From Isoetes taiwanensis (Eukaryota; Streptophyta; Lycopodiopsida; Isoetales; Isoetaceae), in assembly GCA_021234155.1 (NCBI GenBank), contig JAJEKV010000084.1, positions 3,041,702-3,105,701 on the forward strand: a DNA stretch of 64,000 nt, written 5' to 3'. The notes under the pieces are model-generated. The model ran no database searches and was not told where the DNA came from. It worked only from the letters and a program-made list of their open reading frames with translations. Of the stretch, positions 47,311-62,011 are shown piece by piece; position 1 is the first letter of the stretch; every line of letters begins with the position of its first letter. Made by a program: the position numbers and the translations under genes.

Positions 47311-48486
47311 TGTAATATCTCGTGTTGAGTTGCCTCAAGTTTCAGTTGATGCTTGCAATTCCAACCTTATTACAAATGGCTCCCTCCATGTGCTTTGGTT
47401 CGTGTGTTGCAATGATCAGATTAATATTCTCCAGGCAAATATCCATTCAGTACCTATGAATGAGCCAAATGACAATGATCCTGCAGGGTTAATAATGCTA
47501 CAGATACTGCATAAATATTTTCTAGGTTGAAGTCAAATGGTTGCAAGATTTCAATGGTTCATGGTGCTGGATAAATATTTCTAAATTCAAGCTCGATGGC
47601 TGCAAACAAGTTTGAATATTTATAGGAAGTCTTATTTCCTTTTAAAGTTGATATATGGCCAAATAATTGAGAGCCAAATCCAGATATGAAAAGCTCGGTG
47701 AAGGCTTCACCGTTGGTAACTCCTTATTCGTTTGCTTAATCGACGGACCTCCAAACGATAAATCTTGTATAATGCATGTCTAACTTTGTTTGATCGGATT
47801 AGCAAATGAATATCTGAAAAAATAGAATAGAATAGAATAGAATAGATTTTTTAACATCCACGAAGACCAAGTGCCCGTGGAACCCATACAATGTCTTAGT
47901 ACACTATTACTACTAGGAATAAAAAAAACCCTGCCTCAAAAGGTTTTCAAGGGAAAAATCTTTGCAGTAATGATGATAGACAAGCAGGAAAAAAATATAA
48001 GTAGACCATGATGACTACTGAGGGCTCAGTAATTGAAGGCGCTCATCTATAACCTCAAGTATGTTAATACCAAGTCACGCACTGATGGGGCTCTGATAAA
48101 TTTTGGGAGCGTGGAATGGATTGCTAAAGTCAAATAACGATTCCTGACCATCTCAAAAGCATGACATCTCAGCAGAGTATGGCTTTCATCTTCAATAACA
48201 TGTAACTGGCAACATGCACATAATCTCGCTTCTCGTGGCAATTGCGGTCGCTCCCATCTACCTGTCTCAATCCATAGCTTGGGGGAAAGAAGAAGAGCCA
48301 ATGAAACCTTCAGTACTTTGGTCAGTACCAAAGCTATAGTAACAACTGAAGTTTTATTTTTATGGTTGATTTGTTCTAGAAGTAAATGCTAATTAACTCT
48401 TCTAGTTAACTTTGAAATTTGGTGATACTGAAATTATCTAGTGATATCGATTATTAGCATTGAGAAGTGCAAATTAATAGTTTACA
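47311..48486 (+). mobile_element. Probable 5' LTR of a Copia-type retrotransposon
   Basis: It begins TGTAATATCTCG exactly where unit 3 stops matching units 1 and 2, and ends TTTACA five bases before a tRNA-Met-type primer binding site. It is interrupted by a LINE 3' end at about 47821-48345. No 3' LTR was found in the window, so the LTR assignment rests on TG..CA ends and position. Confidence 0.5.
47821..48345 (-). mobile_element. 5'-truncated LINE 3' end with (ATTCT)n tail, copy A
   Basis: On the minus strand a frame at 48331-48047 encodes ETGRWERPQLPREARLCACC, then IEDESHTLL, the CxxC..HxxxxC domain at the end of some LINE ORF2 proteins. A 3'UTR follows with a stem-loop (aaaggttttcaaggg region), then cgtggatgttaaaaaatct, then five ATTCT units (plus-strand AATAG at 47821-47845). 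It matches copy B at 54850-55370. Confidence 0.75.
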
Positions 48487-48505: not shown

Positions 48506-49051
48506 ATGACAAACAAACTTGGTGCATCATTACTTAGTGCTATTGATGTGTTCAAAGATGGTGCGGGATTTCAAGTGTGGAAATGTAAAATTCAAGAAGC
48601 ATTGAAAATAGGAGGACTGTGGGGCCGGATCTTAGATGAAGAATAAGTTGTTGTCACATGGCAAACAAGACCTGATAAAGGTAAAACCTATGTTGTAGCA
48701 GCTAGTGATGGAAGCTCAATTGGAAAAGCAGTTGGTGGTGGAGGATCTAGTACTTTTGAACGTAGTAGTTCTTCATGTAGAGAAATCTCTAGAAAATCAC
48801 GTTTGCTTCAGGCTAGAAGTGTGATAAGCAGTTTAGTTAGCTCTAGAATTTTACTACAGCTAAGAGAACTGACTCTTAAATAGATGTGGGATTATATAAT
48901 ATCTGATTATGAGAGAAAAAACCTTCTCTCAATTAGATGTGCTACGAAAGAAGCTTAGAAAGCTCAAATACAATGATAATTATGACCTTGTTGAGATTTT
49001 TCAAAAATTTGACAATTTGATACCTCAACTTGAGGTTGTAGGAGTTCTAAT
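48506..49051 (+). pseudogene. Copia-type gag, 5' part
   Basis: The ATG at 48506 opens MTNKLGASLLSAIDVFKDG and QVWKCKIQEALKIGGLW, then a stop at GRILDEE. The frame resumes after shifts with MWDYIISDYE, FSQLDVLRKKLRKLKYNDN and FQKFDNLIPQLEVVGVLI, the usual end of the Copia gag UBN2-like domain. It is interrupted at codon VLI by the insertion at 49052 and continues at 57298 as TKEYQALP. It is degenerate and non-functional. Confidence 0.75.
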
Positions 49052-49175
49052 AGCATCGTCGGATCGTTATTCTGGGATGGGACGAGCAGCTATATATGTG
49101 CTCGTCCTTCTTGTGGCTCGTTATCGGCGTCTTCTCACAGCAGCATCTCTTTCCTTGTCCATTGCTTCCCACCCT

Positions 49176-52100
49176 TCTTGTTTCTCCTTCTTTTCAATGA
49201 ATCTTCTTCTTCTTTTCCTTCAAAAGCTTCTTTTGCCATCAGATATTTCATTAGTTTCTATCTCCTTCTCGTCCTTATGGTATGATGTAGTATGATAAGG
49301 CATGCATGGAGGAATGATCAAATCCTTAAGATTCATTACTTTCTTTTACATTTAATGCCTTCGAGTTCGCACATGGCGAATCGATTAAAAAGGGATGATA
49401 CAATATTTACTGGCTTATGTAGATTATATCAATTTTCAACAATCTTCCGTTGTTTTTTTTGCAGGTTTCAGCATTCTTAGCGTCTATGTAAATTTTCCAC
49501 AATCTTCTATTGCTTTTTGCAGTTTGTTCTTTCTGTTTTGATGCATTCGGACTGTGCATGGGCATCCATATACAAAAGCCTGATCCAATCGTTGTTATCC
49601 AGCCTATGGAGATCGTAAAAACTGGACTCTTTGTTTAATATTGCATCTTTGTAACAGTTTCTAACATGCAATTCATTGTGGAAGGTCTGGCTTTTTCCAA
49701 CAAGCAAGGAGCTGCAATGGCACTGTTAAGCAAGCATCTTCTCGTTCTTCTTCTCTGTTGATTTCTTACAGCTGCTCCATCGATTTGGAAGCTAGAGCAT
49801 AATCTAGCTCTGGTTAGTGCTTTTTGGTTGGATTCACGATTGGGTCTTCTCTCTTTATGAATCTGCAGCATTTCTCTGAATTTCATCTAGTTTGGCATCA
49901 TATCTAGCTGAATTTGCATGGCTTGCAGCGAATTTTGCCTTCTTTTTCTGCCTGTGTATACCAAACAAATGCTCCTTCTCACCGCGGTTTTCTCGCCTTA
50001 AATTAGCTTGCAAATAGAGCTTATGTTGAGTCATCGTTTGTCTTCAGGATGGTTCACAATATGATCTGCATGCATGAAGAAATAAACTTGTGTTGCTTCT
50101 GTGTTTCTTTGCTGCTATGATTTGAAAGAAATCTGCCTTATGCTAGACTAGGGACGTTAATCTTCTTTTGCAGATCTTGAACTGGTGATGGACGAGGCTG
50201 AGCACAATCGATTTGTTGTTTCTTATCCTGAACCAAAGGGTCTGCACCAAGCAACAAGGGAGCTGTTTTGCCTTTTTTGAGTCTACAGATATAGTATTCA
50301 AGATTCGAATGGCATCTCCAGAACCTACAAGACAAATTTGAACGAAGTATGGCTGTTTGACGAAGATAGTTACAGAACAGAGCATGGATATACCGAGCAT
50401 GTAGCACAGGAGGAAATTTTTTGATGACAAACCATCTCTAACCTGTTCTCACAGATCTGCTCCTTGGCTCACGATATGCCCTGCTCTCGCTTCTTTCTGC
50501 CATCCCTAATCTCTGGCCTAAGCTTTTTCCCTTCTCCCTGATCCGGCCGGCCTAATCCTTTCTCCATTCCGTTGCCTTTCTTCATTAGGGGTTACGTTCA
50601 TCTGGTATCCCTCCTAGTTTGTTTCTTCTTACACTTATTTCGAAACTTGGGACTTTTAACTGTCTAACCTTATTTTAATTGTTTAAACTCGTTGCTGGGT
50701 AGAATATCTCCGTCTCACCTTCACCTCGGTCTGCCTTCTTCGTCTTTCAAGGTTTGTGTTTCCTTCACGATTTGTGTTTTCCAATTTTTTTAGATTTGAA
50801 TGTTCGAATGAGAAACTTGTTTCGCGGCTCTGGGTTCGTCCATGTCACTTAGCCCTCTTAACCATATACATTTCCTTAGCTAACAATTTTATTCTGACCA
50901 TTGTTCAAGTCGTTTTATGTTAGGTGCCTACATAATTATTTTCGACCATTGTTCATGGGGATTGGGTTGGTATTTGCATTTAATTATGGGTTTGGCATCT
51001 CATCATTCTCATTTGTGCTTACTGGAACCTTCGGCTCTATGATATGCATGATCATTTGCCAATATTCATTTGATCTATAATTTATCCTAGTTCATCTCAT
51101 TTCTCTGGCGTTTGTTCCTCTTTTCAGCACCCTACGTTCTCAAACCATTGAATTCATGCATCAAGTTGGTTCTTCTTTTTGTGATTGCAACCCATCTTTA
51201 TTTTTTCTCCATGTGTAGCTTGTGTTGCTTGATATTGAACCTCACTAATGCAAAGCTTTTTGGGGGTTGCAAGTGTTCCATTTTAACTCTTGTGGTGCTC
51301 TCTTATTTTCTCCAGTCCATTGTTTGTGCTCTGAGGTTGAATTGACAATGCCTCGCATTTATTAGTCTGGAGTACTTGTGGTATTTTTTGTCTTTAACGA
51401 GCATCATCATTTTTCTCAAAGTATAGTTTGGGTTGCCTTTTCAAGTTAACTATTTTAAGCTACCACATTAAATTTCAATTTTATGGTGCCCCATTACCTT
51501 ATTCAGTTCATCGCCATTCTTGCCTCTAGAGATACATTCATATTGCTAGGTGTTGGTACCCACTTTGGGAGTTTTTATTTCTAGTAACTTGGTTTTTCTG
51601 AAGCAAAAGTGTTGCTTCAAAGCCAGTTTTTCTACCGGGTGTATCTCTTTATATTCCTTTGGTTAAGCATTTGGGTCATTGTCTTTGGAATCATTTTTAT
51701 GCATCATATGTTGGCTTGCCAATTTTGCCTAGATACAGGCATCTCTTTTCTACATAGTTTTTACTCTATTGGACCTAGATTTCTGTTTCAAAATTTCACA
51801 TTGACTTCTCTGGATAAGGCTGTGCAATATGTTTTTTTTTCCATGTTTCAAGGTGGTTTCACGTCAATTTGGGACTTTCTTAGTCGAATAATTGTTTCAT
51901 TCCATGTATCTACGATTTATTACAATTGCCTTTGCTAATACATTGTTTTCATTTAATCACTTTGTTTTGTGGCGAGCCTCGTTGCATCCCACCTTGCTCT
52001 TGGTTCTCTTGACTTCCATCTCCTCTACATCCTTGGCCATAACTTCCTTTGACTTAGCTCACACTTTTGACCTTTTCCTTGGTGAGCATCGCCATCTTAC

Positions 52101-54849
52101 TATTTTCATTTTCAGCCTCTCTTTTGCTAGATCCACGCTATCTTCGGCTATTCATCTTGGTCTTCTAGGTGAGAAACATCTTGTTTTGGTTCAAGTCATC
52201 CTTCTAACCCTCCGTTTGACTTGACTTTAGTGTACTGTTTTTGTGTTTAGCCTTTTTCATTTTCGTCATTGCCTAATATTGCTTTCTCCATTTTTATTAT
52301 ATTCTCTTGGGCATTTCCTTCCTTGTTGCATGGCACATATTGTCGTGCTTCAAAAATTGATGTGTATGATTTTTTGTGCATTATTATGGTGGACCATCAT
52401 TGTGCACATCGGAGATAAACTGTTGTTGCTAGATTAATGGCGGTTCTTGTATTGTGATCAGAACGCTCCATTCTTCTTCTATAGACTCATCTGTCGTTTC
52501 TTGGAGGTATTATCTTTTTTCATCTTCTAGTTAGAAAATGAGCTCGAGGTGATATGTTATTTTCATTCGGTTGGCTTTGTTCGATGTTTTCCACTAACAC
52601 TCCCATTGGCCTATTGCCATTCCCATAGGGATGGAACTTTTGCAAGCTCAAACTCCACCGTTGTAGTTTGCCTGTGTTCTTCAAGGTACTTGCGTCTAGA
52701 ACGACTTGCTTCCCAGGGGTTCATTTTTGCCATGCCGCCGCCTTTACCCCTATGCCTCAATCGACAATACATTACCGCCTCCTTATCTTCACCATTCGCT
52801 TGTTAACATGCCATCTATCTACCTATAACAAACTATCATTTCCTTAACTTACACTACATTTGTAAGTATTCACTTGAACCTTTTCTTTCACCAAGTCCCT
52901 TTGGTTGGCTTATTCAATTTTGTCGGATACATGCATGTGGGTATCTTTCTAATTTTTTCGAATGCTTTTATTCTACCGATATTGGTTATTTATCTTGAAG
53001 TTTTGAACTCACTATTCTAGACTTTGTAGGGATATATGTCCTAGGTTTTTTTCAATTGGGTTTCATACTTTGGAGCTTCATTGGTTAATGTGGTTCTTTG
53101 ATAAATATTGTAGATATATTTTCAATTGCCTTTACAAGATACATCGTCTAAGGTTACATTCCACACAACTTGTTTTTGCTCATTCTATTTTCAACTAGCA
53201 TTGGGATGTGATTTTGCAATAGTTATTTCTTGGATCACTTCATTCATCATGGCAATCGCCGCCTTCTTACTCTTCCATTTGTCTCGGAACCGGACCGCTT
53301 TTATATAGGGGATTTTTACGCTCTTTAGGGAACCCGAAGGTGCGATAAGGTAATTTATTGTTTGTTGTTTTCATTTGGGACATGGACTTTTTAGCTCCTT
53401 TTGCTAAAGTTATTTGTGATGCATTTGGTAGCCGTTACAATACGCTGTGGGTTCATTATGTCATTTGGGTGCTTTGTCCTTAATGTTCTTCCACAAGCAT
53501 TGATTTTTGATGCTATTGACATGGGTTGTATGTTGCAACTTTGAGCTATATCTTTGTGGACATGTATGGTGTACCTTATGGACATTGAGTTTTGAGTATC
53601 AGGGGGAAGCATGCCTTCTTTTCCTTTGATGAGCTTCATCGAATTTTTTCTTAGTTCTTTGCTCGCCCTAGTTCTTTGTTTCCTATATTTCGGGTCTCAT
53701 ATTGCTTCTCTTGTGATCTATATTTGGCTTCTTCACATGTTATGTTGCATACTTCTTTTTACATCTTTTCTATTGGTTTCGGTCATTGGCTCTATTTCAA
53801 GTTTGTTTCTACACCAATTTTCCATATATGCATGTATTGGATTGTCATTTTTTTGCATTGAGATTTGCGAGTGGATTTGTCTAGTATCCGTTTACATTTT
53901 GTTATGAAGTTCTTGTTCAGTTTTGCTAACCTTTTGTTTGACATTTTGCTTCATTCTTGGTCTTAACGCATTTCCTTTGTTGTCCCTGGGTACTCCCGAC
54001 CTCTTGATATGTTATGTTATGGATTTGTCATCTCTAGATATGCCCATTTATTTGTCCGAGTAAGTTTTTAATGTTTATCACGAAGTTGTCTTATTTTGTA
54101 TCATTTCCACATAGGCCTCTTAACCATGCACTTGACTCGACCTCATTCACGAGACACAAGTGCCATTGATAGACTAGGCCCACTCCATCTAACACCTCAA
54201 TTTTTTCAGAGCTCACATGGATAGCTTTACTACTAATATGTCACTTCACGTCGCCATTGTGTTTTGGTCCCTTTATCATTACTTGCGTTGCTTTTTCATA
54301 GCACACCATATGTATGGCACTTTCGCTTTATTAATAATCATCATTTTACCTAGCCAAGATATTTTCATTTGTCCTTTTTACCATATGGTGACCTCTTGCC
54401 CTCCACCCCCACCTTGGCACTTTGACCTCCATCTCTTCTTTTTCGTTGGCCATAACCTCACTTTTGACTACTTAAGCCTCATTTTTTTTTCGTTGCTAGG
54501 ATCCGAATTAACTTTCGCCTCAATTTCCTTCTTGACCTTCCTTTTGATCGGTGCTAACATGTCTACATCCTCTTCCTCAATCTCCTCCCTCATTTGCCAA
54601 AGTATGTTTCCTATTGGGACCTTTATTCATGGCTTTACGCATATGGTATTATTTGTCTTCGGACATCACCACCCATTTCTCCTATGCTACCCTGAACCAG
54701 ACCTTAGCACTTTCGCTCTCCTCATCTTGTTCCACCCATTTCACAACCTTATGAACCTCTTTGCTTTAGACTTCTTGTTGATGTCAACCTCCTTTTTCTT
54801 CTTGACATTGCTCTGAGCTGGATCATTCTGTTGGTGTTTGTCATGCACC
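49176..54849. other. T-rich interior of element 1
   Basis: The plus strand is pyrimidine-rich and open by composition (Phe/Leu/Ser-rich frames), which I do not accept as genes. On the minus strand, diverged repeats at about 52000-52080, 54400-54480 and 55526-55585 share the DNA blocks ccaccttg, tccatctc and ttggccataac. They read as Lys/Glu-rich peptide pieces such as KEVMAKDVEEMEVKR and SEVMANEKEEMEVK. This points to an old minus-strand ORF. Confidence 0.4.
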
Positions 54850-55370
54850 AGGGCCCCAAGCTTATTTGCTTGCTTCATTGTCCAGGAACAAGCTTGTAGC
54901 TATTGCATCAATTCGCACGGGGTCCCATAGGCTACGGATTGAGACAGGTAGATGGGAGCAGCCGCAATTGCCACGAGAAGCGAGACTATGTGCCTGTTGC
55001 CAGTTACAGGTTATTGAAGATGAAAGCCATACTCTTCTGAGTTGCCCTGCTTTTGAGATAGTCCGGAATCATTTTTTGACCTTAGCATTCCATTCCATGC
55101 TTCCACAACTTCTCAGAGCACCATATGTGCATGACTTGGCATTATACATACTTGAGGTTCTAGATAAACGTCTGCAATTACTGAGTCCTCAGTAGTCATT
55201 ATCTCTGCTTGTCTAGTATCATTATTACTGCAAAGGTTTTTCCCTTGAAAACCTTTCGAGGCATGGGTTTTTTAATCCTAGTAGTAATGATTGTACTAGC
55301 CCATTGTATGGGTCCCATGACCTATTGGTCTCCGTGGACGTTAAAAAATTTATTCTATTCTATTCTATTC
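54850..55370 (+). mobile_element. 5'-truncated LINE 3' end with (ATTCT)n tail, copy B
   Basis: Frame 54866-55195 encodes LRIETGRWEQPQLPREARLC, then IEDESHTLLSCPAFEIVRN. The zinc-binding-like CxxC..HxxxxC is complete. The 3'UTR has a stem-loop at 55240-55262 and ends gttaaaaaatt plus four ATTCT-type repeats (55351-55370). It is nested in element 1. Confidence 0.75.
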
Positions 55371-56118
55371 TTTTTATGTTATTGGTTGTGGTTGACATTT
55401 CATGTTCTTAGTTTGGTCTTTTCAATATTGTTCTTACCACCTTGGGCAGATTACACACTTTTTGCTAACCCTTTGTTCTTGTTAGCTCCTTGATCATAGC
55501 ACTACCCTCATGAATTCCACTCTCACCTTGGCACTCTTGATATTCATCTTCCTTTATCTGGTTTATAGTTTGACCCCTTTCCGGGGTGTTGACGTCATGT
55601 GGCTCTTGATATTTTTTGTTGTCAATTTAATTACCTTTAACGTGGTTTTATGTTGTCTTGTGGCAGCTACCTCTCGCTTATTTACCCCCCAGGAGGTCCT
55701 CTTGTTCCTCCTCTACTTTCCCTTTGGTGTTTTCCTCCCGCGCCCCATCCACCCTCACGGCTTCCATAGCTATATTCCGCCGCTTTGTTGCTTGGTGTTG
55801 TCTACATTCTGTTTCATATCTCCCTGCTTCCCCCCTTCGTCGTCGCGGCCTTTTTTCGCCTCTCTTCATCATCCTGGTATGTCTTCCTCGTCGATTACTT
55901 CGGCCTCGACAGCAATATCCTTTTTCGTCAAAAATTTTTTAACCTTCCAACCTCCGTTGTTTTACCTCTACCGTCCTTGGCTCGTCAATCTACCTCTCGT
56001 CAGGCCCCACGCCCCCGCTTCGTGCACATAGTCTCTCCCTCTCGCTATGTAGTTTGCGATGTTGCCCGAATTTAGACGTTTTTTGTCTGGGCTTGTAGGT
56101 AAGGATGTTCTCTGGTAG
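55371..56118 (-). other. Minus-strand charged coding remnant in element 1
   Basis: The minus-strand frame 55872-55678 reads MMKRGEKRPRRRRGEAG, then VEEEQEDLLGGK. Related charged peptides continue on both sides in shifted frames. The composition (Lys/Arg/Glu) resembles a nucleic-acid-binding structural protein, but no family is recognised. Confidence 0.3.
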
Positions 56119-56158
56119 TCGGCCAGTTTTGTGTCCTTTGCGAGTCCCTTCCCAGAAT

Positions 56159-57294
56159 AGCATCGATCAGGAGCCCTCGGATCGTTATCGATGGGATGGG
56201 ACGAGCAGCTATATATGTGCCCGTCCTTCTTGTGGCTCGTTATCAGCGTCTTCTCACAGCAGCATCTCTTTCCTTGTCCATTGCTTCCCACCCTACCCGC
56301 CCTTATATGTTATCTTGAGTTCGTCTATTGTTTATATGTTTTTGTTCAGTTTTGACCACCCGTTGGGTGATGCTTAAATTATTTTCCACCCCAAGGGTGA
56401 TGCTATCTATATTTTTCCCACCCGTTGGGGATGCTCGATGATCTCCACCTGGTGATGCTATTTTTTCTTTTTTTCCACCTCTCGGTCTTTGTTTTCTATT
56501 TCTATATATGTTTGTTTACGGTTCCTAACATCTAACGGGTGACTTTTCATCTATTTTTGGTTCATGCACTATTTGTTGTTGTCCACCTTAGGTGTTGCTA
56601 TAATAATGTTTTCTTTAATAATGTTTTTCTTTTTTTCGGCATTATGCCGCATTATTCTCCACCTGCGGGTGATACTGTTTATTTCCACCTCGAGGGTGAT
56701 TTATATTTCTTTTCACATGATTGTTATCCACCCGTTGGGTGGCGCTTTTCTCCACCCTATGGTGATGCTATCTCCACTGCGGGTGATCTTTGTTTATTTC
56801 CACCTCGAGGGTGGCGATATTTCTTTTTACATAATTGTTCTCCACGGTTGGGTGATCTTTGTTCTCCACCCTATTGGGTGATGCTCTCTTTTACGCTACA
56901 TGTTTGATTTTCTCTAACCATTCACGGGTGTTTTTTAGAGTTCTTTGTGTTGCTTGCAGGTTTTACGCCATCTTCTGCGGTCCTGCTTTTTTTGGCTTCG
57001 CCATCGACCCACTCCTTCGGTTCTCCAGGCAACACATTCAAGGTTGCTGGCGACCATTTCTCATTAGGGTTTTCCTCGAAAACCCGAAAGGGCGGGGTTT
57101 TTTATCCCGATGAGAAGTTGTCGCCATTACCCTTCTATACTGCCTGTGCACATTTCTTTTGTTTCCGGGGTAGCCCGATATTGTTCCTATGGTCGGCTAC
57201 CCCTCTCTATTCTTCAAACATTGTATACTGCTGCTGTGATGAATGACAAGCCTATCTTCGGCCGGTTTTGTGTCCTTTGCGAGTCCCTTCCCAG
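56159..57294. mobile_element. Insertion element 2 (1.1 kb), non-autonomous, head-to-tail with element 1
   Basis: It is bordered by AAT at 56156-56158 and 57295-57297, and shares both ends with element 1. There is no coding capacity. The interior is dominated by an array of short CCACC..GGGTG hairpins (56356-56884). Near the 3' side is a stem-loop around ggttttcctcgaaaacc (57067) followed by gggcggggttttttatccc. Confidence 0.65.
56356..56884. repeat. Array of ~13 short hairpins, consensus CCACC-N(2-5)-GGGTGATGC
   Basis: Copies start at 56356, 56386, 56418, 56445, 56583, 56659, 56685, 56728, 56752, 56774, 56800, 56842 and 56866. Loops differ (cgtt, tta, tgc, tcga, tat), while stems keep pairing, for example CCACCCGTTGGGTGATGC and CCACCTCGAGGGTGGCG. 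T-rich spacers are 5-125 bp. Degenerate copies lie near 56475, 56533 and 56917. Confidence 0.85.
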
Positions 57295-57297
57295 AAT

Positions 57298-57940
57298 TAC
57301 CAAAGAATATCAGGCATTACCAATATCACATGTCTTTTGAAAGTTTGCCCATCTGTCTACACTTGTGAGAAATCTAACCAAAGATAGAAAGGAGGTAGAA
57401 AATATAATAAGAACAGATCTAGAACAAAAAGGTTTTGTAGAGGAAGATGAGCCGACTGAGATACTCTATGCTGGAGGGAAAGGATGTGGTTGGTCCTTGC
57501 TTCTTATGCGAGCATATAGCCACATCAAAGCTAACTATTCCAAACTATCTAAAGATAATAGATGCTTTAATTGTGAAGGATTTGGAAGCATTGCTGCCGA
57601 TTGATCTACTTTAAAAGACCAAGATAAAAACAAGGGTAATGGTAATGTTAGAGGCAGAGAGTTTAATACAAAGGGCAACAACTTTAGAGAAAGATGGAAC
57701 TTTAGAAAGATAGCAAGGGAAGGCCATCTCTTGTCAATATTGCAAGGGAAGCAGAAGAAGATCTTGAAGAAAAAATGGACGAAAATGATGAGGTAAAAAA
57801 TTCAAATGCCTTTCAGTTTCTAATAACCATTCTAAGGATGATGGCAACTTATTTGTAATAAATAGTGGGGCTGGGCTTTCATAATGAGGCATTGTAAATA
57901 CATTGAGTACACCTACCTTAAAATTATGGCAACACACTCA
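57298..57940 (+). pseudogene. Copia-type gag, 3' part with zinc knuckles, and protease remnant
   Basis: It continues from 49051: TKEYQALP, then KFAHLSTLVRNLTKDRKE, a first knuckle split by a frameshift (GPCFLC / AYSHIKANYSK) and a second, RCFNCEGFGSIAAD (57560-57601), in which His is Ser and the last Cys is a stop. A Lys/Asn-rich stretch follows. Beyond about 57850 a weak protease-like piece (LFVINSGAG) fades out. Integrase and reverse transcriptase are absent. Confidence 0.65.
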
Positions 57941-58785: not shown

Positions 58786-59430
58786 CAGGGATAGGTTCAA
58801 TACGCTGTACGTTTTATACGGAATACGTATGAATTGTATGATACGGCACAAATTTGCCGTATAAAACGCAAAAAATACGGCAAAAAACAATTCCGGCGTC
58901 GGAAGATTTTCGCGTACGCGAAAACAACTATATTGCGTACGCGAAAAATTTTTCGCGTACGCGAAACCTTCAGAACCGCGTACGCGAAACCAAAAATTTT
59001 TCGCGTACGCGAAAACAACGCCACAGCGTACGCGGACTTTTTTTCGCGTACGCGATTTAGTTGTTTTCGCGTACGCGAAAATCTTCCGACGCCGGAATTG
59101 TTTTTTGCCGTATTTTTTTTCGAACACCGCGCTGCTTTCGCGTACGCGAAATGAACTGGATAGCGTACGCGAAAAAATTTTCGCGTACGCTATCACGAAG
59201 CTTTCGCGTACGCGAATGTCAGGCCTGTCCTTTCGCGCCGCGATTCTTTCTATTTCGCGTACGCGAAAAAATTTTCGCGTACGCTTTCACGAAGGTTTCG
59301 CGTACGCGAAGATTTTTTTTTCCGGCCGGCGAGGTATTTATACGTTAAATACGTATTTTATTAAAAAATACGTATTTTTTAACTTTATACGTCAGAAATT
59401 TTAATTTTGTACGTATAGAACCTATCCCTG
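58786..59430. mobile_element. Complete non-autonomous hAT-type foldback element
   Basis: The 8-bp target duplication GTGATGAG is exact (58778-58785 and 59431-59438). Terminal inverted repeats are CAGGGATAGGTTCAATACG and CAGGGATAGGTTCTATACG (one mismatch in 19). An 8-bp duplication with CAGGG ends is typical of hAT. The interior has an inner hairpin of ~55-bp arms (58874-58929 and 59059-59116) and 15 copies of GCGTACGC, mostly within TTTCGCGTACGCGAAA (58912-59307). No transposase. It is inserted in the LINE just before its RGIRQ motif. Confidence 0.9.
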
Positions 59431-62011
59431 GTGATGAGTCTTGTTCTATTTTTGAAATCAAAAGAGGCATCAGGCAAGTATGTCCACTGGCACCATTCTT
59501 ATTTAATATAGCTGCAGAGGGATTTTCACAGTTTTTTTATTTAAGCCTCAAAAGATGGAGCGGATCACAACAAATATGCAATTAGTATGCAGACAACTCT
59601 TTTCTTTTCTTACAAGTAGCAGAAGACAACTTAATGAATGCAAGTCAATTGCTTGATACTTTCTCTTTAGCATGTGGATGCCTCATAAACTGGAAGAAGT
59701 GTTATGTACAGTGCGCGGGGGAAGGCACACATCCTAATTGTCTTGAACATCTTCCATAGAAAGTCATTCCAAAAGGAGAAAGCTCCAAGCTCCTAGCAAC
59801 GGTTGGAATACATACAACTAGTATTTAGGACAATATGATTCTTGGACTCCAAAGACACTTAAACTGGTGGAAAGTTGCAAAGCTATCATTAGCTTGAAGG
59901 ATTGTAGCAGCAAAGCATGTGTTATGTAGCATCCATATCTATGTGTCCTCACTCTTAATTGCTCCACTTGATAAGGCACACAAGATGGAAGCAACAATTC
60001 TAAATTTTGTTTGGGAAGGCAATGAAGAAGGTGCATTTGACAAAATTGCATGGTGGAAGTGTAGAAGGGCAAAGGAAGAAGGGGGTATTAGCATGATAAA
60101 GCAAAATACTAGTGGCAAAATTCATCTGGAAAAAGTCAATTCACCGGGTCTATTACTCATTATTCAAGCTTTACTATTCTCATGCTATTATAATAAAACA
60201 TCGGTACCGAGTTCACTTCCATGGTCGCTTTTCAATAATTTAAGACCATGTTTGAAGTCCCCTTTCCTTAAGAGGTTGCTTGATGCATGGAAAACATTGA
60301 AAAAGCTGTTCACATTAAGCAACAATGATCTCATGTTGTTACCACCCCACCGTGGTGGATCCGACTGAATTTCCATAATAAGAATGGACTCCTAGCTTTA
60401 ACAGCTGATGCCCGTGTAGGAAGAAGGTGGATCACCTGTGGCATAAATTATTGTGCACCATGGTACAAGAGCAACAAGTTTAGTGGATGGGCGGAGTTTA
60501 ATGATGAATTTGGGCTAAAAGGTTATGACATGGCAATATGGGATTGTATAGCAACAATTTTGCCAGATCACATAAAATGTATACGGACCATGCCTTGGGT
60601 TCCCCATCTTTCCCTTCAGGCAACGCCATTTGTAAAGTCATCTTACAAATATCTGAAGATGTCTGATGTCATCTCCTTAGACTCCAAGTGGAATATGCAA
60701 GCTACACTAACAGAAATTAAGAATGTGTGGAACTGGTTAAAATTCACCCCCCCAAGGGTGTGCTCGCTTATTTGGCAAGTTGTGCATGGAGTCCTCCAGG
60801 TGAATACACGAGTTTTAAAGTATTAAAAAAGGATGGGGCATGATGAAGCTGGCGTGGGGTGAGCTTTGTTGTGACAAAAAAAGATGGTGGATTAGGCTGC
60901 AAAGAACCCCTTCTTACAAGCACAGGCTTTGGCAGCTAAATTTATCTGGCGGAATCATTCAAGTCATCCCTTGCTTCGAAGTTTGTTTCTTATTGGCTGA
61001 AGCAAGGGAAGCTCCTAGGTAAGCCATTTCTCTCCGAGGTCAGTGCTTTGTTTTACGGTTTCAAGGTGGCCCCTGGCATGTCTCCTGTTATGAGGAAGAT
61101 TCTCCAGACTTGGTTGAATGTGATGCATCTCTTCTCCCCTATGGATCCTTCTAGGGATGCAGGTGGATTCAGCCTACTTTAATATATCATGATTTGGGAG
61201 AGAGAGATGGACTTCCCTTGGTTCTCTCACACCCTCGTATCTTTTCCAAGTAGAAAGGTTGCGGAATAACTTTGTTGCAATACCTCTGGGTTAATGGCAA
61301 ATGGATTAACTGGACTGCATTCAAGGGTATAATCTTGGATCCAGGTCAAGGGGACTATAAAGTATTAAGGGAGATCCTATGGAATGCCACCAATTTAACA
61401 AGTATTGTGGGTCCTTGTGAGAAGTGGCTACATGATGGGCATATACAATATAGTGTGGCGAGAATATATAGTGATTTGTGCCCTTGAAAGTCGAGGAAAG
61501 GCTCGAGGTCTGGAAGTCTATTTGTTCTAGGAAGATTCGGTTCTTTAGATGGTTAACTCTTCAAAGGTGGCTAAGTACTAAGGAAATTTTATTTAATAAG
61601 GGTATCACGGTTGATGACATGTATCCACTTGATTGTCAAGTCACTGAATCTATTGCACACCTCTTCTTTTACCCCCTGATTGCAGAGTTCTGGCAGTGGG
61701 TCTGTCCTATAATTGAGCTCATGCTATACTGATTGGTTTGGCCAAAATTGATAATGATGTTGAATCGCTGCTGCATAGAAGCCTCCCTTGTGAATCTGAC
61801 GCTCTGGGTTATTTGGAAGCATCGGTGTGATGTGGCTCTGGGTGGTCAGGAGATCTCCGTGGTGAAGCTAAAAAACTCTTTCAATCTGGAAGTTGCTTTG
61901 GTGGCATTATCACATCATAGAAAAGAAAGTTATAAACTACAACACAGGATACAACAATGGTCTTTCTCGACTCGCAAGTCGAGAAAAACAGCTCAAAATA
62001 AAAAAACATAG

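Follow-up and report, generated by a model that had tools for sequence, protein, structure and literature searches.

A hairpin array in an abundant, gene-less Helitron-like element of Isoetes taiwanensis

In the parts of the published descriptions available to us, elements of the Helitron2 group carry asymmetric terminal inverted repeats (ATIRs), the 5′ one 0-2 bp from the 5′ end and the 3′ one followed by a hairpin and placed 20-30 bp short of the 3′ end; the group includes Helitron-5_SMo and Chlamydomonas elements, and compensatory changes have been noted between the ends of related elements (PMC3627910). Helitrons are described as moving by a single-strand mechanism, with a terminator role cited for the end hairpin (PMC5876387). 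The HINEs (DINE-1 type), such as Cg_HINE of the Pacific oyster (PMC7492417) and HINE-Mo of a mite (PMC4067079), are gene-less, high-copy elements with subterminal inverted repeats, a 3′ palindrome and, in some of them, central tandem repeats. The autonomous partner of Cg_HINE was not identified (PMC7492417), and Helentrons are said to be mostly unidentified in plants (PMC4067079). In addition, the rice Helitron DHH_Mothra reaches high copy numbers without RepHel and has low-GC tandem-repeat blocks that vary by sub-type and were proposed to improve transposition (PMC4683698), and the FoHeli elements of Fusarium oxysporum have ATIRs, hairpins at one or both ends and composites attributed to self-insertion (PMC5148889).

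The window analysed here is a stretch of 64,000 nucleotides (contig positions 3041702-3105701) from the genome of Isoetes taiwanensis, which comprises 1.66 Gb in 1110 contigs; a near-identical segmental duplicate of the window (L002) was excluded from the counts of units, ends and structures. Matches to chlorophyll-binding proteins number 66 in this genome, as expected for a plant; of 14 control genomes, just one, that of a cyanobacterium, gave such a signal. The window holds a hairpin array that is genuine, lies at the location originally given for it and is part of an abundant, gene-less Helitron-like element. The best explanation overall, to which we assign a probability of about 0.62, is that the array forms the central repeats of a rolling-circle DNA transposon, non-autonomous and of the Helitron2/Helentron (HINE) type. 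The element is like Helitron2 in its terminal anatomy and differs in that neither a 5′-terminal hairpin in the window copy nor a RepHel partner was found. It shares with the HINEs the traits named above, but their repeats are microsatellites or satellite-like monomers (about 160 bp in the related Pearl elements), whereas here they are hairpin units of 17-20 bases separated by T-rich spacers, in a plant. DHH_Mothra is alike in copy number and repeat blocks but has canonical ends (5′ TC, 3′ CTAG, one hairpin), and its repeats are not described as hairpins in the available part of the source (PMC4683698); FoHeli, alike in its ATIRs, end hairpins and composites, differs in including members that carry RepHel, and the available part of its description contains no hairpin array (PMC5148889). 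With the central repeats of HINEs (PMC7492417, PMC4067079) and the blocks of Mothra (PMC4683698) so close, the claim of the original prediction that no equivalent had been described was too strong, as far as these partial sources go. Since the arms are constant, without clear matched-pair change, we regard the array as a variant of something already described. What the locus offers is an abundant, apparently Helitron2/Helentron-like plant family (4342 exact termini) with central repeats built of short hairpins, in which it becomes testable whether HINE-type central repeats are passengers or aids to single-strand transposition.

The array and the element that carries it

The array, the element and its ends were located as follows.

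56356-56884, no strand assigned: array of 13 units CCACC-N(3-6)-GGTGATGC, from a permissive scan and a genome-wide pattern search
56656-56889, no strand assigned: two copies of a block of hairpin units of about 114 bp, 82% alike, within the array
56156-57297, minus strand: short non-autonomous Helitron2/Helentron-like element of 1.14 kb containing the array, with the 5′ terminus (minus strand) at 57297
57279-57297, minus strand: 5′ ATIR, ATTCTGGGAAGGGACTCGC on the minus strand
56185-56206, minus strand: 3′ ATIR, mutated in the window copy; family form on the plus strand ATTCTGGGATGGGACGAGC
56164-56184, minus strand: 3′ hairpin, degenerate in the window copy; family form CGATCCGAGCCCTCGGATCG, with 4342 exact family-type termini

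In the permissive scan the units of the array start at positions 56356, 56386, 56418, 56442, 56583, 56659, 56685, 56728, 56752, 56774, 56800, 56842 and 56866; weak matches at 56968 and 57009 were judged to be false units. The array has 11 perfect hairpins (stem 4, loop 3-7), compared with 1.18 on average and never more than 5 in 1000 dinucleotide shuffles; CGGCATTATGCCG at 56637, which is among the 11, is of another type than the repeat. The predicted number of about 13 hairpin units is thus borne out, and the spacers are T-rich and unequal, as had been described. In comparison with shuffles, folding of the array region as single-stranded DNA gave z values of -5.5 for the minus and -5.3 for the plus strand, and folding as RNA gave -5.1 and -2.75, respectively. 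Searched genome-wide, the two-unit pattern CCACC-N2-6-GGTGATGC-N4-30-CCACC gave 4676 matches versus 1 for the reversed control, which places the repeat at thousands of sites; across loci, the number of units per array ranges from 1-2 up to about 14. The loop is 4-5 bases long in 601 of 763 units and, since lengths of just 2 to 7 were scanned, the freedom of the loop is a weak argument for a hairpin.

Of 1590 candidates, 40 were scored, and these copies match the array region at 83-100% identity. On the left, an aligned piece starts at 56156-56158 in 11 of the 40 (9 by the longest piece). On the right, the end of the longest piece falls at 57295-57307 in 16 copies and at 57256-57257 in 7; it runs on in two, which are the window and its duplicate. 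Read on the minus strand, the element begins with ATTCTGGGAAGGGACTCGC and has near its other end the inverted ATTCTGGGATGGGACGAGC, followed by the hairpin CGATCCGAG..CTCGGATCG and a few bases. The left-terminus pattern has 4342 exact matches in the genome and one right terminus has 156 exact 22-base matches, with 0 matches for either control.

The sequence of the terminal repeats varies among subfamilies. Another large subfamily has ATTCTAGAATGGGAC at both ends, and L077 has ATTCTAGAATGGGGC, a GGGGC variant, at both, while the two ends of L073 read ATTCGGGGAAAGGAC and ATTCTGGGAAAGGAC; in L054 and L094 the GGGGC variant stands at one end and is unmatched at the other, which was counted against the rolling-circle reading. 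The paired ATIRs of an element resemble each other more than they resemble those of other elements: over 33 loci they share 12.15 of 15 positions versus a shuffled mean of 11.18 and maximum of 12.03, and over 22 distinct pairs they share 11.5 versus 10.5, a value reached by 2 of 2000 shuffles; these figures include some misread ends (right ends of L011, L015, L021 and L033, left register of L014, L056 and L088). The terminal repeats covary more clearly than the array. In a further subfamily the ATIR ATTCTAGAAT is itself palindromic, and in L053 (279-327) the left-end hairpin is doubled back to back, perhaps via repeated use of the end.

The assignment to Helitron2 and the HINEs relies on ATIRs of which the 5′ one is terminal and the 3′ one lies about 20-30 bp inside the end, on a hairpin separating the 3′ ATIR from the 3′ end that is present in family copies and degenerate in the window copy, and, for the HINEs, on central tandem repeats between two end modules. 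No 5′-terminal hairpin accompanies the 5′ ATIR in the window copy, the sole copy folded (z +0.76), and for this reason the element is called Helitron2-like and not a proven member. A canonical Helitron (Helitron1; 5′ TC, 3′ CTRR, hairpin 10-12 bp before the end) was rejected, the 3′ end on the minus strand being ..GATGC[GT]ATT in the copies read and inverted repeats being present. In 49050-57297 no stop-free stretch exceeds 207 aa, and a Pfam scan of nine frames of this interval found no family; the sole Pfam match, zf-RVT in the frame 61478-61729, is outside the element and, like a Copia-like flank, agrees with a plant genome. A search for Rep proteins of an autonomous partner gave 1813 candidates, of which 150 were listed and 20 read: all 20 have RGLPH (canonical Helitron-type) and none RGSPH (Helentron-type). 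Furthermore, none of the 150 listed Reps was seen within 50 kb of 100 listed terminus matches when the two lists were compared by eye.

The view that the array belongs to a mobile element is upheld by interspersed copies, defined ends, empty sites and composites. Joined flanks of six insertions were used as queries (40 of 487 candidates scored) and revealed empty sites for four of them (L060, L048, L077 and L057); this search gave none for L047 and L029, and L047 was negative in two further searches as well. Two empty sites were read for each of L060, L048 and L077 and one for L057, and all seven have a single AAT, versus an AAT at both ends of the filled sites. The single AAT fits insertion without duplication beside ATT or inside it (minus strand), in the manner of Helitron-like elements, and a 3-base duplication fits equally. 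The latter would be the mark of a MITE-like transposon with terminal inverted repeats and AAT/ATT duplications in place of a rolling-circle element; however, the inverted repeats are asymmetric, one being terminal and the other inside the terminal hairpin, and abutting head-to-tail composites are common. We consider such a transposon very improbable, and a form with symmetric repeats was rejected on the asymmetry found here, the AAT duplication being ambiguous. As for the composites, the L060 insertion consists of two abutting units sharing one pair of flanks, the alignment extends to 56037 or further upstream in 22 of the 40 copies, and right ends of a second type (R2) are directly followed by a left end in 8 of 9 cases. 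The window copy itself abuts a tandem partner.

56119-56158, minus strand: 5′ end of the upstream tandem partner, head-to-tail against the short element; a 40-base repeat of 57258-57297 (98%)
49050-56158, minus strand: long tandem partner of 7.1 kb, T-rich when read on plus; its two ends are of the kinds found in the short element

On the plus strand, the AT skew of the partner is about -0.3 between 50 and 56 kb, and the unit pattern gave no exact match to an array unit in 49050-56158. Its frame 54866-55195, for which there is no Pfam match, presumably resembles the C-terminal zinc-binding region of a LINE, and an inverted partial copy of this region is present at 47819-48286.

Conservation and covariation of the stems

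The original prediction had described the stems as compensating, with pairing kept across variants. Double changes were counted in a set of 829 units from 94 loci, which included 55 extra array loci from the first 100 places listed by the two-unit pattern; a strict filter retained 763 units and dropped the false units near 56968 and 57009 with their variants, as well as units with more than two mismatches in the arms or more than two in the tail. In the four outer pairs of the 763 units there were 2, 1, 2 and 0 double changes (total 5) versus 0.8, 0.6, 1.3 and 1.0 expected (3.7), and in the 318 distinct units 1, 1, 2 and 0 (total 4) versus 1.2, 0.8, 2.6 and 1.4 expected (6.0). At the innermost position, 128 of 309 distinct units have a Watson-Crick pair versus 103.5 expected, a weak excess that is confounded by descent, and with G-T included the count is 199 versus 196.7. 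The outer arms CCAC/GGTG are nearly invariant; the variants quoted in support of compensation differ chiefly in the loop and the innermost pair, and the CCACCT variants mostly retain the same G, that is, they are one-sided changes.

Homologous blocks of four hairpins were also aligned: 116 full-length matches were found, 40 were kept at less than 90% identity and the best 27 were aligned. In this alignment 92.6% of the cells are paired versus 91.2% after shuffling (reached in 2 of 500), five pairs have two-sided changes versus 1.4 (0 of 500), and the covariation score is 0.088 versus 0.067 (1 of 500). Sliding the alignment by 1-3 columns lowered pairing to 40-51% and the score to 0.037-0.057, yet still gave 5-7 two-sided pairs; three of the five two-sided pairs sit in helix 1, which has ragged ends and is poorly aligned. 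RNAalifold predicted 14 pairs in the 27 rows, none of them compensatory. Altogether, the notion of compensating stems is not sustained, with 5 double changes versus 3.7 expected and 0 of 14 compensatory pairs. As regards covariation itself, the unit counts are negative and the alignment is mixed, in that it beats its shuffles and is equalled by the slid controls in two-sided pairs. The arms of the array are mainly conserved sequence, and covariation is neither demonstrated nor excluded.

The degree of conservation was compared among the parts of the unit. At G/C positions outside CpG in 39 copies, 3.3% of the letters are off consensus in the arms, 4.3% in the spacers, 6.2% in the loops and 10.1% in the ATGC tail; at A/T positions of the same copies the arms (3.2 and 2.5%) are no better kept than the spacers (2.5%). 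The 27 divergent blocks gave 7.3 and 5.0% for the arms versus 29% for the spacers (9 columns) at G/C positions, and 8.7 and 3.7% versus 6.1% at A/T positions. These values lend mild support to a constraint on the arms that would be modest relative to the spacers.

Downstream of the array, the same element contains two other structures, the first of which served as a comparison stem.

57048-57126, plus strand: branched structure with core TAGGGTTTTCCTCGAAAACCCGAAAGGGCGGGGTTTTTTATCCC and a closing stem that covaries between subfamilies; in array-less members too
57167-57203, plus strand: second hairpin, GGGGTAGCC...GGCTACCCC

The region 57048-57126 folds with a z of -5.2, and its core occurs 82 times in 81 of the 141 loci searched. 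In 37 distinct rows out of 81, the stem has 78 two-sided cells versus 35.9 after shuffling (0 of 500) and 9-16 when slid, and its covariation score is 0.182 versus 0.097 (0 of 500); weaker measures are the two-sided pairs (9 versus 6.4, 29 of 500) and the further pair types (26 versus 24.2, 101 of 500). Much of this signal is one deep split between two subfamilies, to which L143 adds one more two-sided pair (columns 26-82). Comparison with Rfam gave two matches, both far below their gathering scores, and for 57048-57126 no family came close to its threshold. On the evidence of these rows, the stem covaries, and more clearly so than the array. The comparison carries a caution, as conserved hairpin arms in a repeat array are easily taken for covariation while a covarying stem is at hand in the same element. 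In the region of another subfamily that matches 57167-57203, TGGGTAGTTCGCATGTGTGCGGCTACCCA was seen.

Distribution of the array and its possible role

Among the first 25 left termini listed, 6 have the array and 19 do not (1 of 20 loci within about 1.05 kb, plus the five array loci L041, L042, L043, L044 and L047). Right ends with the array are 12 of the 25 assessed among the first 42 places listed (7 of 20 loci with at least two units within about 1.4 kb, plus L025, L049, L024, L031 and L018); the background of units at up to 2 mismatches is 4 in 49 kb on both strands. The array is therefore confined to some subfamilies or copies, and the absence from other family members, which the original prediction had named as evidence against it, holds for a part of them. 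Where present, the array has a fixed orientation and a similar position: none of the 94 loci with a perfect unit has such units on both strands, the terminal hairpin lies within 350 bp of the array on the left in 52 loci and on the right in 3, and the conserved downstream core follows within 600 bp on the right in 40 loci, with no case on the left. The interval that holds the array is bordered on its inner side by a short motif.

56955-56960, plus strand: TGCAG|G after a T-rich tract, a putative 3′-splice-like site that closes the array interval on its inner side

A similar TGCAG|G stands at the corresponding place in several relatives and subfamilies. Together with TATATATG at 56210-56217, near the left end, the motif at 56955-56960 hints that a unit on the plus strand may be transcribed and spliced.

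In some relatives that lack the array, the stretch from the left-end module to TGCAG|G holds different hairpins, namely CGCGTG-G-CACGCG, CCTCC..GGAGG, CCTCG..CGAGG and CCTCT..AGAGG. The interval was measurable in 8 of 20 loci, of which L157 has an empty interval and L143 was set aside as part of a neighbouring unit was included; in the six usable loci, which are related copies, there are 10 hairpins versus 1.2 expected. A pattern built for a pair of these hairpins gave 1182 matches genome-wide and 0 for the control, and by eye, over 100 listed places, the inner pair in CCTCN/NGAGG is mostly C-G or G-C, once T-A, and broken or G-T in a minority. These observations suggest that hairpins rather than one sequence recur at the T-rich interval, with few evolutionary events behind it. 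A bolder proposal, which we hold only tentatively and think rather unlikely, is that plant Helitron2-like elements have a dedicated hairpin slot, that is, a T-rich interval, flanked by the 3′ end module and the splice-site-like TGCAG|G, where hairpins would be required and their sequence free, with unrelated fillings (CCACC/GGTG, CGCGTG/CACGCG and CCTCN/NGAGG) acting on single-stranded DNA or RNA in transposition. The selection for structure put forward in the original prediction survives in a weaker form: the other hairpins in the same interval of some array-less relatives speak for it. In the unit counts, the arms themselves do not covary above independence.

The strongest competing explanation, to which we give slightly less than even odds, is a passive minisatellite, in which a hairpin-prone repeat was expanded by replication slippage or recombination inside the HINE-like element, has no function and has its arms shared by descent alone. 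The absence of clear covariation from the array is in line with it, as are the internal duplication of 114 bp, the spread of unit number (1-2 up to about 14) and the lack of an array at 19 of 25 left termini examined, and the central repeats of oyster HINE are described, in the part of the source available, as satellite-like and dispersed by the element (PMC7492417). It accounts less well for arms that are better kept than loops and ATGC tail in 39 copies, and for unrelated hairpins in the same interval of some relatives.

The conservation of the arms could also stem from a role in double-stranded DNA, CCACC and GGTGATGC being half-sites of iterons bound by Rep or a host factor and the hairpin potential being incidental. 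In that case the arms would be conserved as sequence, as they are, and the GATGC tail outside the stem would belong to the motif; the spacing, mostly of 4-5 bases, also fits. Yet this spacing is not constant over the 2-7 bases scanned, recent copies keep the tail least well of all parts (10.1% at G/C positions) and 19 of 25 left termini examined have no such motif, and we regard iterons as unlikely. Equally doubtful is a function in plus-strand RNA, in which the T-rich interval would be intron-like (TATATATG leader, T-rich tract, TGCAG|G) and the hairpins would act in the transcript, for example by folding back or shielding the interval. The T-rich asymmetry of the plus strand, the TGCAG|G at the inner border in several subfamilies and the conserved structures downstream in the same element are compatible with it; on the other hand, plus-strand RNA gave the weakest of the four foldings (z -2.75, the others being -5.1 to -5.5), and one-sided changes that leave a G-U in the plus strand are just slightly commoner (61 C-to-T changes on the left, 46 G-to-A changes on the right).

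For the array as the central repeat block of a HINE-type element, a function is something that we infer. A Rep/helicase from another source would copy the element in single-stranded form, and the CCACC/GGTG arms may fold into small hairpins during this stage or, alternatively, in a T-rich-strand transcript. The interval would tolerate loss or exchange of hairpins, the array being a helpful or neutral accessory and no required site. The number of units would shift through repeat duplication, and the arms would be kept by mild constraint.

Other repeats were observed in the window. A comparison with plasmid records gave no match. A further array at 58907-59318 is made of palindromic units (TTTCGCGTACGCGAAA and variants) that form many inverted repeats with one another, and in 1-47000 tandem-repeat landmarks recur about 15.3 kb apart (5318, 20569 and 35873; 9196, 24456 and 39738), suggesting three large tandem copies.
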